From Bacteroidota bacterium (lineage in GTDB: Bacteria; Bacteroidota; Ignavibacteria; Palsa-1295): 64,000 bases of DNA. Shown here one piece after another: positions 5,355 to 47,196 of this stretch; position 1 is the first letter of the stretch; every line of letters begins with the position of its first letter. The notes under the pieces were generated by a model. It did no database searches, was not told where the DNA came from, and worked only from the letters and a program-made list of their open reading frames with translations. Position numbers and translations under genes: made by a program. The stretch lies in NCBI GenBank assembly GCA_021324685.1, contig JAJPIQ010000005.1, forward strand, positions 1-64,000, given 5' to 3'.

Positions 5355-7064
5355 TCAATCCTCCGTTCCATGCTCGGCCGGAACGGGTTGCGACGGTTTT
5401 CCAGGATCGCCTGGATATCCGAGTACGTCCATCGTTTCGATCGGGGCGAACTCGTATGCTTCCCACGTCACGACCGGCGTCTCGAGAAAGTTTTCGGTCG
5501 GCGGCGGCGAAGAGGTCCGCCATTCGAGCCCTGACGCTCCCCACGGATTCGCCGGAGCGCGCTCACCATTCTTGAGCGACCAGATAAAATAAATGATCGT
5601 GATCAACATGCCGAGCCCCAGGATCGTCGCGCCCGCCGTCGAGAGCACATGCAGGACCTGGAACTCGGGAGGATACGCCGCATACCGTCGAGGCATTCCG
5701 AGATAACCCAAAATAAATTGGGGGAAAAACGTCAGGTTGAATCCAACGAACTGAATGACCATCGCCGCGCGCGCCCAATATTCCGGATACATTCGTCCGG
5801 TGATTTTTCCCCACCAGAGGTGCATTCCACCTAAAAATCCCATCAGCGAACCGCCGACCATAACGTAATGGAAGTGCGCGATCACGAAATACGTATCGGT
5901 GACGTGCACGTCGATGCCAAGCGCAGCAACGAAGAGCCCCGTCATACCGCCGATCAGGAACAATCCAATAAAGCCGAGCCCGTAGATCATCGGCGTATCG
6001 TAGGAAATGGAACCTTTAAAAAGCGTGGCCGTCCAGTTGAATACCTTGATGGCCGAAGGGATCGCGACCGCATAGCTCAGGAAGGAGAATATAATTCCGA
6101 GATAGATGGACTGGGTCGATACGAAGAGATGGTGTCCCCACACCAAAAACCCGAACACGGCAATAGCAAGGCTCGACATCGCGACGAATTTATATCCGAA
6201 GATATTTTTTCGTGCCAGGTTCGCAATGAGCTCCGAGACCACACCCATGGCTGGTAACACCATGATATAAACCGCGGGGTGCGAATAGAACCAGAACATA
6301 TGTTGGAAGAGGACCGGGTCCCCGCCCATCGCGGGATCGAAAATGCCGACGTGGGCCACCCGTTCGAGCGCCATGAGCGAAAGCGTAATGGCGAGCACCG
6401 GTGTGCCGAGCATGATCACGAGCGCCGTCGCATAGTGCGCCCAGATAAAGAGCGGAAGCCGGAACCACGTCATCCCCGGCGCCCGCATGGTGTGAACGGT
6501 GACGATAAAATTAATGCCCGTCAGGATGGAGGAAAATCCCGCGATAAAGATTCCGACCCCGGCCAGCAGCACATTCGAATTCGAATAGCTCGTACTGTAG
6601 GGAGTATAAAAGGTCCATCCCGTATCGATCCCTCCCGCTATCAACGCGACCGTAAGAAAAATACCCGCGACCACATAGCAATACCAACTGAGCAGATTGA
6701 TCTTAGGGAACGCGAGATCCTTCGCGCCGATCATGATCGGCAGTAAAAAGTTACCGAGCACGGCAGGGACCGCCGGCACCAGGAACAGGAAGACCATGAT
6801 GATCCCATGCGCCGTAAAGATCCGGTTATACGTGTCGGGATTGAACAGGCCCTCCGGAGAAAGCAGGTTGATACGAATGAGCAGCGCGAAGATTCCGCCG
6901 ATGATAAAAAAGAACGAGACGGAAAAGAGATACAGCAGGGCGATCCGCTTGTGGTCCTTCGTCAGCAGCCAGGACTTGAGCCCATGGCCGTTGTTCAAAT
7001 AATTGAGCGGTTCGCCTTCGCTGGTAAGCCTTCCGGCGGTCGCTGTGAGGGGTGTCATGCTCAT
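5355..7064 (-). CDS. ctaD: Cytochrome c oxidase subunit I (heme-copper, A2-like)
   Basis: The 569-residue catalytic subunit of a cytochrome c oxidase: reduces O2 to water and pumps protons. Twelve or so helices are evident. Ligand histidines occur in [10 protein letters not shown], in the CuB region [14 protein letters not shown], in WGHHLFVS and in [12 protein letters not shown]. The usual glutamate of the D-channel (in GHPEVY of A1 enzymes) is replaced: the sequence reads YSHPAVY, the tyrosine-serine arrangement described for A2-type oxidases such as that of Rhodothermus marinus. The ATG at 7064 is followed by a second ATG two codons later. It sits between subunits II and III. Confidence 0.96.
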
Positions 7065-40325: not shown

Positions 40326-41120
40326 TTAATAATCTTCTTCTTCGTCCTCTTCTAATTCTTCGTCGTCCCAGTCGTCATCTTCGAAATCTTCATCTTCGAT
40401 GACTTCGTCTGCGGGCTCAACCTCTTCGTCGCCGGCTTCCTCGACTTCTTCGACGTCGTCTTCCTCGTCGAGATCGTCATCGTCCGTCTCTTCATCATCG
40501 AAATCGTCGTCGAACTCATCGAGGTCGTCTTCCTCCTCATCATAATCGTCTTCGTCATCTCCGAAGGCTAAGAGTTCGTGCTGTTCTAATTCGTCGTCGA
40601 AAGGAGTCATCATAATATTTGCTAAAGCTGCCGCGCCAAACGAACCTCCGGCCGCAATAGCTCCGGAACGAATGGCTTTCGTCGTCGGAGCTTCGGGCCC
40701 GAGCGGTTCATCCGCAAGGATAACCGCGTCCTCTTCTTCGACGCCCATAACATCGAAATCGGGCGAAGAGAAAAAGAGCGAGGCCGCCGGTTGCCGGCGT
40801 GCATCCTGAACAGAATCGAAAATCGGAAAGATGCGGTCGAGTTGCGTGACCGCGAGCATCGAACGAACATTTTCATTCAGGCCGACCAACCGTAGTTCGC
40901 CGTCATGGATTCGCATCTGTCGCTGCGCAAGCAAGAGCGCCGAAATACCGGCACTATCGATGTACTCGACATCGGTCAGATCGACGATAAGCGTTTTAAT
41001 ATCGGGCTGGGCCAGAATAAGGAATTCTGCCTTCAGCTGACCCGCATTACGCGAATCGAGCCGCTGTTCCTTCAACCGAAAAATGGTCGTTGAATCTTCC
41101 TGATCGGTGATAAAATGCAT
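40326..41120 (-). CDS. STAS-domain protein with a very acidic C-terminal tail
   Basis: A 264-residue protein. The first 110 residues form a STAS (anti-sigma factor antagonist) domain with the phosphorylatable serine in VEYIDSAGISALL (S56). After a linker with Ala-rich stretches, about the last 90 residues are almost entirely Asp and Glu (for example DDEDDYDEEEDDLDEF). No kinase or anti-sigma partner is adjacent. The ATG follows a clear AGGAGAG ribosome-binding site. Nothing in the frame suggests a broken gene: the acidic part is in frame and ends with a normal stop. Confidence 0.85.
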   Translation of the reverse strand: MHFITDQEDSTTIFRLKEQRLDSRNAGQLKAEFLILAQPDIKTLIVDLTDVEYIDSAGISALLLAQRQMRIHDGELRLVGLNENVRSMLAVTQLDRIFPIFDSVQDARRQPAASLFFSSPDFDVMGVEEEDAVILADEPLGPEAPTTKAIRSGAIAAGGSFGAAALANIMMTPFDDELEQHELLAFGDDEDDYDEEEDDLDEFDDDFDDEETDDDDLDEEDDVEEVEEAGDEEVEPADEVIEDEDFEDDDWDDEELEEDEEEDY

Positions 41121-41328
41121 GGTGCTCTCCTGATACTGCCGCTATCTGCGGCCGAAGCTGATTGTGGTCAAAAATCGATGAAAGGTCCTAACAATGTCCG
41201 GGCCGTTAAATAGTCCGCGCCGCGAAACTAATAAAACTTTTGACCGAATGCTTGAAACAATTTTGTGAACCGCTGCTTTTTGACCTCTACAAAAGCAAAT
41301 CGCTTAAAATTTCCGTATATTCACTTAA

Positions 41329-42390: not shown

Positions 42391-45300
42391 TTACCGCAAG
42401 ACCGAGACGCGCCGGGCCGTACGTTCCCGCCCGTTTTCGAGCACCAGAATATAATTCCCAGGCCCCAAGGGGGTTGTCATCGTGACATCATGCTCGCCGG
42501 GTGCGGCCGGTAAGGACTTCATACTTCTCACCAGCGCTCCCGTTTCATCGTACAACTCGAGCGAAAGATCGCTCGGAGCATCATGGACAACATATTGTAC
42601 GCTCCACACCGTTGAATGAGCAGGATTCGGTGCAACCGAAATCACATCGAAGCTCAGGGTGCGAGTATTCAAGAGGTCGAGTAGCGTCGGGTCCCCACAA
42701 GCCAGTGCAATTTGAAACGGCTGTTCCGGAATATTACAAAGTTCCAATCCCGGCTCCCGGTCGGTCACGAAAGTATCCAGGAGAACGTCGGTTACGCTAT
42801 CGCGGGTAAGCGAAACGAGCGTACGTACATAGATAAGCGGGAGGTCAAGCCGAGAGCTATCCGAAATCGTGTCCCGAAGCCAAACACGTCCGGAACATCC
42901 ACTGCCAGGCTCCGCCACAAATCGAAAAGAATCGACCACGCTGCTGCACGTATTCGAAAATTCGAGCCGTTCCGGCGTCAAAAGATCGGTGTTAAAAGAT
43001 AAGTGGAACGCATAACTTCGGATCGAGAACGTGTCCGTCGTTGGCTCCAGCAGGATAGGAATAAGAAGTTCCTTGCCCGCGAGGAGACTGGTGAGCGCTG
43101 GAATCATAGGAACGGGTGCGGTCAGATTTTTTCCAGTGATGGAGAGCACCGTGTCAAACCGCCGGATACCGGCATGCAAATACAGTCTTGCCCGGACCGC
43201 TCGCTGCCCCGCAAACGCTGGCGTGAACGCGATCGACATCGAATCCGATTGCTCCGACAAGAGCGAATCTCCAACACGATACGAAAACTCCTGCAAAGTA
43301 TCTCCCGCGATCGAAACAGAATCGACAGCCATCGCCTTGCATCCGGAATTAGAAATCACGATCGGAAGTGCGACGGGCTGGCAATATTTCGTAAATAGAA
43401 AGATCGAATCGGCGGATAACGCAAGGGGCTGGGAAGGTATATTGTTCGACAGCGCAAGCGAAACCGTAGTATCGAACGATTTTGATGCCGTGTGCGCAAA
43501 AAGCCTGACCGATCCGCTTTTTGAAATGCTGTCCGAGGGATCGAATTGAATGCGAACAACCAAAGAATCGCCTCCGGCAATCGTATTCTTCAGGGAGTCG
43601 AACGAAATGGATATGGTACTGTCCTTGTCGATCGCCGAATCCAGGGTAAGCGTTTCACAGCCCTGGTCGGAAATCGTAAACGTGTCCTGAATCGGTGCGC
43701 ATCCGGCCGTCGCCAGACTCATGATCGTTCGCGAAAGAACAAGCGTTTGCGGATTAGTTATGTTCGTTCCCATAACTGTGATGGCCGTATCGAACGCATG
43801 GTTTCGATGCCGAGCATAAAGATGGAGCTGGCCGGAATCGGCTGACGCACCGGGATTGTACACAACAGAAATCGTATCCAGCGCCGAAGGAGCAAGAACG
43901 CGAGAAACACCGGAAACCGTAAATGCCGAACTCGAAGAAACAATGGAATCGAGCGTGACACTATCGCAACTCGTAGTAAGGAATGAAAAACTTCCGACGA
44001 CCGGATGACAGTATCTGGTCTCGAGTGCAACGAGCGTATCCGATAGTACAAAAATGGGCGGCTGCTGGATCGACTGCGCTGCAATGGCAAGCGTAGTTTC
44101 ATATGAACGTCTTCCGACATGCGCAAAGACCTGTGCCGCGATGGAACGGTGTTCGGCGCTATCCGGCGCATAGGAAATGGCAACCGGGAGGGATGCGCCA
44201 TTCGCAATAAATTGCGGGAAGGTGTCGAGGAGGACAATTTCTCCATCCGAAAGTACGATCGAATCGAGCATCATTCCGGAACATCCCGGTCCCGAAAGGA
44301 GAACGGTATCGATCCCAACGCTGCACGCTCCGACTTTGAAGCTGCAGGTATCGGAAGAAAGTTCGAGGCCGCCGGGAAGAGCGCTGTTTGTTTCAATGAT
44401 CATATCGCGAATGACCGTATCCTGGCCGGAATGACCATAGATGCGAACCACCGCCGTATCCTGGCCGTCGGAAGTGGGAGAAAACAGGGCGCGAATCGAG
44501 ACGCTATCCTGCTCGCTTAATATTTTCGGAAAATTTGTGCTGTCCGCAATCGATAAAAGTTCCGTCCCCGAAACAATGGCCGCGGAATCGATCGTCACTG
44601 GAATACAATTGTCCCCAAAAGCTGGGAACTGAATCGTGTCCCCGCACGGATTTGGAAGCAGCGAAAGTGTATCGATTGAAAGCGCAACCGAACCTTTGAG
44701 CGTGCCATCTCCCCCATCCGTCGTTTTCCACACCCCGCCCTGACCGTCGAAAGCATACACGACCTGCCCGTTACATCCGGTCACGACAAAACGTGAATCG
44801 CGACTGTGCGCGGGGCCATGTACGAAATGCCAGGTTGCGCCGAGATCATCCGAGCGGTACATCCCATATAGAAAATTCGGGTTGCCGTTATAGGTCGAAT
44901 CGGTCTGGAAATAAAGCGTATTGCCCGCACCTGCGATGCCGCCGGTGAAGTGCATATCTGCAAAGCTCGCCCGCTGCTGCCAGGTAAAGCCGCCATCGGA
45001 CGACCAGTTGATCGAGGCATGAGGAAGTCCGGGCTGTGATTCGTTCGCGCAAAAATAGATGTGCCTGCCTGGGACTGCATACGTTGACCACGCTTCATAT
45101 TGCTTGCTTAGGGATTGCTGCCAGGTTCGGCCGGCATCGGTCGTCATCCAGAAGTTCCCACCGCCGATGTTGTCGTTCATTTGCGTCAGTACGCCATTCA
45201 AACTGTCCGAAAACGCGACATCATTGCCGCCATTGCCCGTTCCAGCGGGAAAACCTTCCGTCCATGTCACACCGGCATCGTACGAATAGCCTCCGCCCAT

Positions 45301-45891
45301 CTGATCGATAGGGGGGATGTTCAATGATTGATAGGCATAGTCCCATTTCGTGAGCACGAGAAGCCCGTTTTGTGCATACACCGAAGTTGCAATGTGGTCC
45401 AGGTGCAGATCGTCGAACCAGGTATTACCACCATCCGTCGTTTTCCAAAGGCAGGAACGGCCGAACGATCGGTTATAATCGAAAGGAATATCGCTGAAGA
45501 TGGAGGCATATCCCGTAAGGGAATCGATCATCGAAATTTTGGTAACCGCACCCTGAAAGTTTACTGGAATAACGCTTGGGGTCCATGTTACGCCTCCATC
45601 CGTCGTCTTATAAATCGCGACGGGCGCGATCCATGTCTCGTCCACAAGGGTTGTAACGGGATCGATTTGATCTCTATAAATGGCCGGCCGAACGCCAGAA
45701 CCGACAAGGCCATGGTCGGGATCGAAAAAAAATCCGCAGCCGATCGTGCGGTCGAACTGGCAAACGAGTTTCCATGTATTCCTCTGTGCGCGGGCCGCCG
45801 TAACGTACGCCAAAAACACAATCGCGACGAAAAGCGCCCGGATGGGAACGCGGAAAGCGACAAAACGACCGATGGGAACGTTAGAAGTCAC
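42391..45891 (-). CDS. Giant secreted protein with BNR-like repeats, cysteine-paired Ig-like modules and T9SS-type C-terminus
   Basis: A secreted protein of about 1166 residues. I take the GTG at 45891 as start because it places a signal peptide (IRALFVAIVFLAYVTAARA) near the N-terminus, but the frame stays open 261 nt further upstream and has no good start. The first half contains BNR/Ycf48-like repeats (TDGGVTWTP, TDGGNTWFDD, DDLGATWHF). Then come five modules of about 105 residues with a conserved Cys pair spaced 12-13 residues (for example CAPIQDTFTISDQGC). The last 80 residues open VISVAPNPAHSTVWS, a T9SS-type domain. Convergent with holA without a gap. Confidence 0.75.
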   Translation of the reverse strand: MTSNVPIGRFVAFRVPIRALFVAIVFLAYVTAARAQRNTWKLVCQFDRTIGCGFFFDPDHGLVGSGVRPAIYRDQIDPVTTLVDETWIAPVAIYKTTDGGVTWTPSVIPVNFQGAVTKISMIDSLTGYASIFSDIPFDYNRSFGRSCLWKTTDGGNTWFDDLHLDHIATSVYAQNGLLVLTKWDYAYQSLNIPPIDQMGGGYSYDAGVTWTEGFPAGTGNGGNDVAFSDSLNGVLTQMNDNIGGGNFWMTTDAGRTWQQSLSKQYEAWSTYAVPGRHIYFCANESQPGLPHASINWSSDGGFTWQQRASFADMHFTGGIAGAGNTLYFQTDSTYNGNPNFLYGMYRSDDLGATWHFVHGPAHSRDSRFVVTGCNGQVVYAFDGQGGVWKTTDGGDGTLKGSVALSIDTLSLLPNPCGDTIQFPAFGDNCIPVTIDSAAIVSGTELLSIADSTNFPKILSEQDSVSIRALFSPTSDGQDTAVVRIYGHSGQDTVIRDMIIETNSALPGGLELSSDTCSFKVGACSVGIDTVLLSGPGCSGMMLDSIVLSDGEIVLLDTFPQFIANGASLPVAISYAPDSAEHRSIAAQVFAHVGRRSYETTLAIAAQSIQQPPIFVLSDTLVALETRYCHPVVGSFSFLTTSCDSVTLDSIVSSSSAFTVSGVSRVLAPSALDTISVVYNPGASADSGQLHLYARHRNHAFDTAITVMGTNITNPQTLVLSRTIMSLATAGCAPIQDTFTISDQGCETLTLDSAIDKDSTISISFDSLKNTIAGGDSLVVRIQFDPSDSISKSGSVRLFAHTASKSFDTTVSLALSNNIPSQPLALSADSIFLFTKYCQPVALPIVISNSGCKAMAVDSVSIAGDTLQEFSYRVGDSLLSEQSDSMSIAFTPAFAGQRAVRARLYLHAGIRRFDTVLSITGKNLTAPVPMIPALTSLLAGKELLIPILLEPTTDTFSIRSYAFHLSFNTDLLTPERLEFSNTCSSVVDSFRFVAEPGSGCSGRVWLRDTISDSSRLDLPLIYVRTLVSLTRDSVTDVLLDTFVTDREPGLELCNIPEQPFQIALACGDPTLLDLLNTRTLSFDVISVAPNPAHSTVWSVQYVVHDAPSDLSLELYDETGALVRSMKSLPAAPGEHDVTMTTPLGPGNYILVLENGRERTARRVSVLR

Positions 45892-45900
45892 CGGAACATC

Positions 45901-47196
45901 GTGGATCTCGTGAATCGACCTCGAAACTTTGCCATTGCCCTCTTTGCGGTACTCGTGCTGCTCACAACGCTGCCGGGTGGCGCACTGCGTGGTTCCAACA
46001 AACACCATACGCGCAAACGGGCGCGGCATGCGCCGGCTTCGCATTCGCCCCGCCGAGGACGCTCGGCCGCTCGGGAACGCGCTTCGAAAGAAGAGACGCT
46101 TCGAAAAATTCAACAGGAGATCGCGAAATATGAGTCCGAACTTCGGGAGCACGAACGGCGCGAAAAACGCTCAAAAGCGAACATTTCGACCTATAATAAG
46201 CAAACGGCTGCCCTAAAAGCCAAAATCCACAAATTGCAGGATGAACTTCGCGAGTTTCAAACCGAAAAGTCGGACGTTGATCGTTCCCTGACCGAAACAA
46301 GCAGTACGCTCGAAAGCCTGAAGGCGGCGTATGCCAAAAGCAGCCGCGCGTTGTATATATCCGGGAGTATGGAGAGTAGCGATACCGGCTCACTTTTTTT
46401 TGACGGTGAGTCTTCGGATCCCGTCCGAATGCGCTACTACGCCGGCGCGATCGCGCGCGCCCACGCGATGAATCGCGCCAAGCTCGATTCGATGAAATTG
46501 GCGCTTGGCGAGTCCAGCAACGAACTCGCACAAACGATCGAATCGGAGCATGAAGAGATCGGCACACACCAGGAGGAAGCTTCCACGCTCGAATCGAAAA
46601 AAGCCGCCGAAGCGAAACAGCTGGCGCAGATTCAGGCGAGAAAAGAGCAATTAAGAGCGCTTCTCGCGGAACGAAAAGCCAGTGCAAAACGGCTGGAGTC
46701 CATTATTGCGGGACTCGTGCGACGCGAAGCCAACGCACGCACGACAAAAAAGGGACATCGAAAAACGACCGAATACGAAACCGAGCGATCGCTCGGACCG
46801 GTGCGTGGACCGCATTCGCTCGAGTGGCCCAGCGCGTCACACCGTATCGTGCAGGGATTTGGCGAGCATCGGAATGCCGAATTGGGAACGGTTACCATGA
46901 ATTTGGGTGTCGATATTGCGGCACCTGCCGGTTCCGTCGTGCGCGCGGCGGCCGAAGGTGAAGTCGCGCTCGTTTCGACGCTGCCGAGCTATGGGACCAT
47001 CGTCGTTATTCGTCATGCCGGCAGCCTGCATACGGTCTATGCCGACCTCACCAGTGCGAGCGTCCGTGAAGGCGCACATGTGCGTGCCGGTGAAGCGATC
47101 GGCAGGAGCGGGACGAATCCAGAATTAGGCGCTGCCATGCACTTCGAAGTCTGGAAAGGAAAATCGAAGCAAAATCCTTCCGCGTGGTTGAAATAA
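45901..47196 (+). CDS. EnvC-like LytM (M23) domain protein with degenerate zinc site
   Basis: An exported 431-residue protein. GTG starts at 45901 or 45910 give a basic N-terminus and hydrophobic signal FAIALFAVLVLLTTLPGGAL. Residues about 70-260 form a long coiled coil, followed by a linker and a C-terminal LytM domain. Zinc ligands expected in HxGxD and HxH are altered: the first appears as NLGVD, the second as AMHFEVW. The fold is therefore probably inactive, as in EnvC, which activates cell-division amidases. Its stop overlaps the next start by 1 nt (TAATG). The divergent gene begins about 9 nt upstream. Confidence 0.85.
   Translation: MDLVNRPRNFAIALFAVLVLLTTLPGGALRGSNKHHTRKRARHAPASHSPRRGRSAARERASKEETLRKIQQEIAKYESELREHERREKRSKANISTYNKQTAALKAKIHKLQDELREFQTEKSDVDRSLTETSSTLESLKAAYAKSSRALYISGSMESSDTGSLFFDGESSDPVRMRYYAGAIARAHAMNRAKLDSMKLALGESSNELAQTIESEHEEIGTHQEEASTLESKKAAEAKQLAQIQARKEQLRALLAERKASAKRLESIIAGLVRREANARTTKKGHRKTTEYETERSLGPVRGPHSLEWPSASHRIVQGFGEHRNAELGTVTMNLGVDIAAPAGSVVRAAAEGEVALVSTLPSYGTIVVIRHAGSLHTVYADLTSASVREGAHVRAGEAIGRSGTNPELGAAMHFEVWKGKSKQNPSAWLK

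Follow-up and report, generated by a model that had tools for sequence, protein, structure and literature searches.

A STAS protein from a Bacteroidota bacterium (Ignavibacteria; Palsa-1295) carries, behind an anti-sigma-factor-antagonist domain of a known type, a long polyanionic C-terminal tail that, by sequence comparison, is a lineage-specific addition in a single family of uncultured Kapabacteria relatives. What is new here is the presence of this conserved and unusual tail on a familiar switch protein; the function of the tail is what we infer. The best explanation, to which we give a probability of about 0.38, is a partner-switching antagonist whose tail would mimic nucleic acid in the manner of the acidic region of RNA polymerase delta, aided by docking elements within the C-terminus.

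An anti-sigma-factor antagonist with an acidic tail

The window comprises 64,000 nucleotides (GCA_021324685.1, contig JAJPIQ010000005.1, positions 1–64,000). The preliminary description had proposed an intact gene with a good ribosome-binding site, and this holds: an unbroken frame of 264 residues is preceded by AGGAGAG, four bases before its ATG (Table 1). The N-terminal part was described there as an ordinary STAS domain with a phosphorylatable serine, which the domain searches bear out (Pfam PF01740, residues 5–107, E 4.1e-20, 72 bits, cut-off 22.6; NCBIfam anti-sigma factor antagonist model TIGR00377, ant_ant_sig, 66.6 bits, cut-off 53.45). In the AlphaFold model, residues 1–110 form a confident STAS fold with pLDDT mostly 80–91, whose top Foldseek matches in the PDB were 1vc1 (TM1442), 4hyl (a Haliangium protein), 6m36 (B. 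subtilis RsbV bound to RsbW) and 1tid (SpoIIAA). Ser56 lies in a DSAG loop that aligns with the DSAG loop of TM1442. On sequence and model, the STAS part is assigned to the RsbV/SpoIIAA-type anti-sigma-factor antagonists, and it is most likely a phosphorylation-controlled antagonist of a kinase.

Table 1. Features of the acidic-tailed STAS gene (positions in the window; residue numbers refer to the encoded protein).
Feature	Positions	Strand	Basis
Whole gene, STAS protein with acidic C-terminal tail	40326..41120	-	ORF; same architecture in 12 orthologues
Ribosome-binding site AGGAGAG, 4 bases before ATG	41125..41131	-	Direct reading of the sequence
STAS domain, residues 5–107	40800..41108	-	PF01740 E 4.1e-20; TIGR00377 above cut-off; AlphaFold pLDDT mostly 80–91; Foldseek matches to anti-sigma-factor antagonists
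Ser56, predicted phosphorylation site in DSAG loop	40953..40955	-	Invariant in the genus and in 12/12 orthologues; aligns with DSAG loop of TM1442
Variable linker, residues 108–139	40704..40799	-	Pairwise identity within the genus averages 27%; low pLDDT
Conserved Ala/Gly-rich hydrophobic segment, residues 140–176, contains APTTKAIRSGAIAAGGSFGAAALANIMMTP	40593..40703	-	71% identity in the genus
Acidic tail, residues 187–264, 58/78 Asp/Glu, net charge −58	40329..40562	-	Composition; no second run of ten Asp/Glu codons (one mismatch allowed) in the genome
Conserved C-terminal tip, residues 244–264 (EDFEDDDWDDEELEEDEEEDY), ending in Tyr/Phe in the genus	40329..40391	-	76% identity in the genus

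The protein shares its STAS fold, domain length and DSxG-loop serine with RsbV, SpoIIAA and TM1442 (TIGR00377, PF01740), and the kinase and phosphatase families of those systems are also present in the genome. However, the solved structures of these proteins end near residue 110–120, whereas here a further 157 residues follow the domain, the −58 tail among them. The C-terminus gained in this family has three parts: a linker of variable sequence, then a short hydrophobic stretch rich in Ala and Gly, and finally the polyanionic tail, which is disordered. For the Ala/Gly segment, AlphaFold predicts two short helices at low confidence (residues 147–156 and 160–171), and the hydropathy of 1.0–1.8 is borderline for a transmembrane reading. 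The other genera have an Ala/Gly/Met-rich hydrophobic segment at the equivalent place before the tail.

The tail (residues 187–264) is 74% Asp/Glu, contains no Lys or Arg, and accounts for −58 of the net charge of −74 of the whole protein, the STAS domain contributing −6. It has a pLDDT of about 43–56 and no predicted secondary structure in the AlphaFold model. An uninterrupted stretch of about 90 nearly pure Asp/Glu residues had been described; the tail itself is real, but it is shorter and less pure than that, with 78 residues, aromatic and aliphatic residues interspersed among the acidic ones, and a longest unbroken Asp/Glu run of seven. Codon-pattern searches for acidic runs found no other run of ten Asp/Glu codons (at most one mismatch) in the 3.47-Mb genome.

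The tail is kept throughout one family

The GTDB order to which the organism belongs consists of one family, with 13 genomes in the collection used. An orthologue was found in 12 of these, the thirteenth genome being 67% complete. Whether homologues keep the tail was the check put forward in the preliminary description, and within the family all 12 do: across four genera the tails are 67–90 residues long and 67–78% Asp/Glu, and the net protein charge ranges from −57 to −77. We therefore rejected the idea that the tail is a low-complexity assembly error or a product of chance, for which the probability is now negligible. Retention in all family homologues excludes an assembly error, the tails being open and in frame in 12 genomes of four genera, and the binomial probability of such a composition by chance, at 12% Asp/Glu, is about 6e-37.

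Outside the family, the picture is different. Close STAS relatives occur in 210 of the 294 class genomes sampled, the family itself accounting for 12 of the 210, and the C-terminus was inspected at 50 loci outside the family, representing about 47 distinct places; one misparsed locus (L138) was set aside. No such acidic tail was present in these roughly 47 STAS relatives from other families, the longest C-terminal extension being 17 residues, and the tail is as unusual for an anti-sigma antagonist as had been supposed. A search of the open-access literature likewise returned nothing relevant on an anti-sigma antagonist, or any STAS protein, with an acidic tail. Convergent tails in relatives outside the family were considered and rejected, since the long frames found there (up to 476 residues) have their extra length upstream of the STAS domain.

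In a tree of 58 STAS domains, the family forms one supported clade (97/88), which is consistent with a single gain of the tail at its base; the tree rests on 107 columns, which do not settle the deeper branching order. In a related family (f7), the C-terminal extensions are 10–17 residues long and 4–8 of these residues are acidic. Such extensions are a possible seed of the tail, f7 not being established as the sister clade. The same family also contains a non-STAS frame of 131 residues whose end is likewise a long acidic stretch, with ten Asp in a row (L184; G018:C29:11500-15500).

The tip is constrained in sequence, the middle mainly in charge

Constraint was analyzed in the seven genomes of the genus, where synonymous codons have diverged heavily (41–59% of identical residues use different codons). 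Amino-acid identity nevertheless reached 76% over the final 21 residues, close to the 74% of the STAS domain and the 71% of the Ala/Gly segment; for the linker it was 27%. Where both sequences of a pair are acidic, they agreed on Asp or Glu in 81% of cases in the tip and in 69% elsewhere in the tail, with a shuffle mean of 51%. Because alignment of low-complexity sequence inflates identity, the comparison was repeated without gaps and with realigned shuffles. Gapless identity counted from the C-terminus was 0.64–0.68, against shuffled maxima of 0.40–0.46; in the middle of the tail, identity was 0.54, against a mean of 0.42 and a maximum of 0.47 for tails that had been shuffled and realigned. 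The tip stands above its shuffled controls and is therefore judged to be under sequence constraint, and the middle of the tail to be constrained mainly, though not solely, in charge.

These values bear on whether the tail is simply a brush for solubility or spacing, selected for charge and length only. Such a brush would fit the middle of the tail, which varies in length and tolerates Asp/Glu exchanges (69% kept), and it would fit the difficulty of aligning tail sequences across genera. It would not account for the tip, where the genus preserves both the choice of Asp or Glu and the placing of aromatic residues despite the heavily diverged synonymous sites; moreover, the relatives outside the family manage without a tail. 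We consider the brush quite improbable. We take the acidic tip and the Ala/Gly segment to be probable elements of specific docking; a mere charge brush would have no need to conserve either.

Another idea makes the tail an arm that would bind basic proteins (ribosomal or histone-like) or act on them like a chaperone, or else a binder of divalent cations. A net charge of −58 with interspersed aromatic and aliphatic residues would suit such an arm, but the Pfam search revealed no known calcium-binding motif, and conservation of the exact tip sequence points to a specific partner rather than to generic charge. This possibility, too, seems to us unlikely, if slightly less so than the brush.

Candidate partners are unlinked to the gene

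If the STAS part works as its fold, its serine and the gene content suggest, a HATPase_c_2 kinase would phosphorylate Ser56, a SpoIIE-type PP2C phosphatase would reverse the modification, and the antagonist would bind or release the kinase according to a signal. The search of eight family genomes yielded, in every one, two SpoIIE phosphatases and either one or two HATPase_c_2 proteins that stand alone. Most genomes of the family encode, besides the tailed protein, a second STAS protein, which adjoins one of the SpoIIE phosphatases and, in genera g2 and g3, also a HATPase. The genome under study has just one stand-alone HATPase_c_2 gene above the cut-off. Members of the kinase and phosphatase families are thus at hand, though none is adjacent to the acidic-tailed STAS gene. 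Pairing by elimination leaves the tailed STAS protein, the second phosphatase and the HATPase beside an HRDC protein as unlinked candidates for one pathway. In the genome studied, the candidate kinase is encoded at C17:14749-15147 and the candidate phosphatase on C84, with its domain at 6283-6849. Phylogenetic profiling of the kinase and the STAS gene was uninformative, matches outside the family being probably paralogues. At L094:4764-6151 (G000:C17), the stand-alone HATPase_c_2 gene follows genes for an HRDC-domain protein and for a 104-residue protein without a Pfam match; G005 retains all three genes, and G007 the HRDC neighbor.

We also weighed the possibility that the tail acts within the switch itself, by binding the kinase or phosphatase or by folding back onto the STAS domain, and so tunes Ser56 phosphorylation or insulates the protein from the second STAS protein. 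Insulation could be needed where two STAS proteins occur, as in most family genomes, with one stand-alone HATPase_c_2 in the genome studied; in addition, Asp/Glu repeats act by autoinhibition in some eukaryotic DNA-binding proteins (PMC10250230). On the other hand, no charge complement to the tail was seen on the candidate kinase (net −1), and with the STAS domain at −6 there is no obvious basic docking site. We regard a role of this kind as possible but rather unlikely.

What sets this case apart from the RsbV, SpoIIAA and TM1442 systems is that the genes are scattered and that no SigB/SigF-type sigma factor was found in the six genomes searched. A SigB/SigF-type target is a Firmicutes feature that is absent from the chlamydial and non-canonical systems, and its absence therefore bears on the target and not on the family placement. 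A single region-3 sigma70 factor was found in five of the six genomes searched and none in the sixth (G012); the one in the genome under study, of about 287 residues, is a primary sigma of the Bacteroidota type whose N-terminus lacks an acidic region 1.1. ECF-type domain matches numbered 23–31 per genome in three genomes, and ECF-type sigma factors are possible targets. The chlamydial RsbV1/RsbV2-RsbW-RsbU system has been reported to regulate the availability of the housekeeping sigma factor (PMC11619594). It resembles the present case in having two antagonists and may serve as a precedent for bacteria without a SigB-like sigma, but its antagonists are 110–116 residues long and have no tail. 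Non-canonical STAS proteins, for their part, act on unknown targets (PMC8256260).

The gene neighborhood varies within the genus

The gene had been described as preceding a c-di-AMP phosphodiesterase on the same strand. The position is correct, as a PgpH-like gene (7TMR-HDED and HD domains) lies 89 nt downstream on the same strand in the window, but a steady linkage is not: the gene is kept in two of six genus-mates (L031 and L035), absent from this place in the other four (L032, L033, L034 and L046), and missing in other genera. We found no conserved operon around the acidic-tailed STAS gene in the window, in the genus-mates or in the other genera read. Since the neighbor varies within the genus and is absent in other genera, the link to the phosphodiesterase is weak, and coupling to c-di-AMP through PgpH was rejected as a general connection. 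Upstream, holA (DNA polymerase III delta) is divergent in the window, as it is in each of the six genus-mates read (L031–L035 and L046). The other genera have citrate synthase or unrelated genes nearby; the citrate-synthase-like gene, judged by eye from its sequence, is the divergent neighbor in g2 and g3.

Adjoining holA in the window, on the minus strand at 42391-46152, is a gene for a 1253-residue protein with repeated sections and weak sortilin/VPS10-like and Ig-like matches, parts of which recur beside holA in several genus-mates.

A possible delta-like role for the tail of the STAS protein

The best analogue that we found for the tail is the acidic region of RNA polymerase delta. In B. 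subtilis delta, this region is disordered, 83 residues long and of net charge −47, and delta, or its acidic region in excess, dislodges DNA or RNA from RNA polymerase (PMC7749165). In both proteins a folded domain at the N-terminus leads into an acidic C-terminal region that is disordered (83 residues and −47 in delta (RpoE) of Bacillus; 78 residues and −58 here), but the N-terminal domain of delta resembles sigma region 1.1, whereas here it is a STAS domain. The likeness is one of composition, length and position, and we claim no homology. Asp/Glu-repeat proteins such as HMGB1 (PMC10250230) likewise have a C-terminal disordered Asp/Glu run that acts electrostatically; these, however, are eukaryotic and bind DNA, and the STAS domain is not a known DNA-binding domain.

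Nucleic-acid mimicry or the binding of basic partners is the most plausible proposal for the tail. In the nucleic-acid mimic that we favor, the STAS domain would be docked on a partner while the tail fills a basic, nucleic-acid-binding surface, be it on RNA polymerase, on a released sigma factor or on another partner that binds nucleic acid; the acidic tip, with its terminal Tyr/Phe, and the Ala/Gly segment would then serve as the specific docking elements. A bolder version, which we think improbable, gives the antagonist a delta-like effector of its own: dephosphorylation would both remove the anti-sigma kinase and deliver the polyanionic tail to RNA polymerase or sigma. Sigma release would thereby be coupled to the clearing or remodeling of polymerase, and this in bacteria whose primary sigma has no acidic region 1.1.

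Single-domain STAS switches have been described as compact proteins that act on a kinase or on an unknown target. If the tail is a nucleic-acid mimic, a polyanionic arm would let such a switch act directly on a nucleic-acid-binding machine, and a delta-like acidic tail would have originated independently in bacteria. The conserved C-terminal peptide could serve as bait for partners in this group of uncultured bacteria.

Acidic stretches in other proteins

Shorter acidic runs occur elsewhere. The genome studied has one run of eight Asp/Glu codons outside the STAS gene, inside an RNase E/G homologue. In the RNase E/G homologue at L180 (G000:C48:74000-78500), the N-terminal part contains a conserved insert of acidic sequence, RDDDEEEEDY, which G001, G003 and G005 have as well. 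A bifunctional-nuclease-like protein (L185; G037:C1:1394500-1398500) has the stretch DEEDDDDDDD before its C-terminal part.
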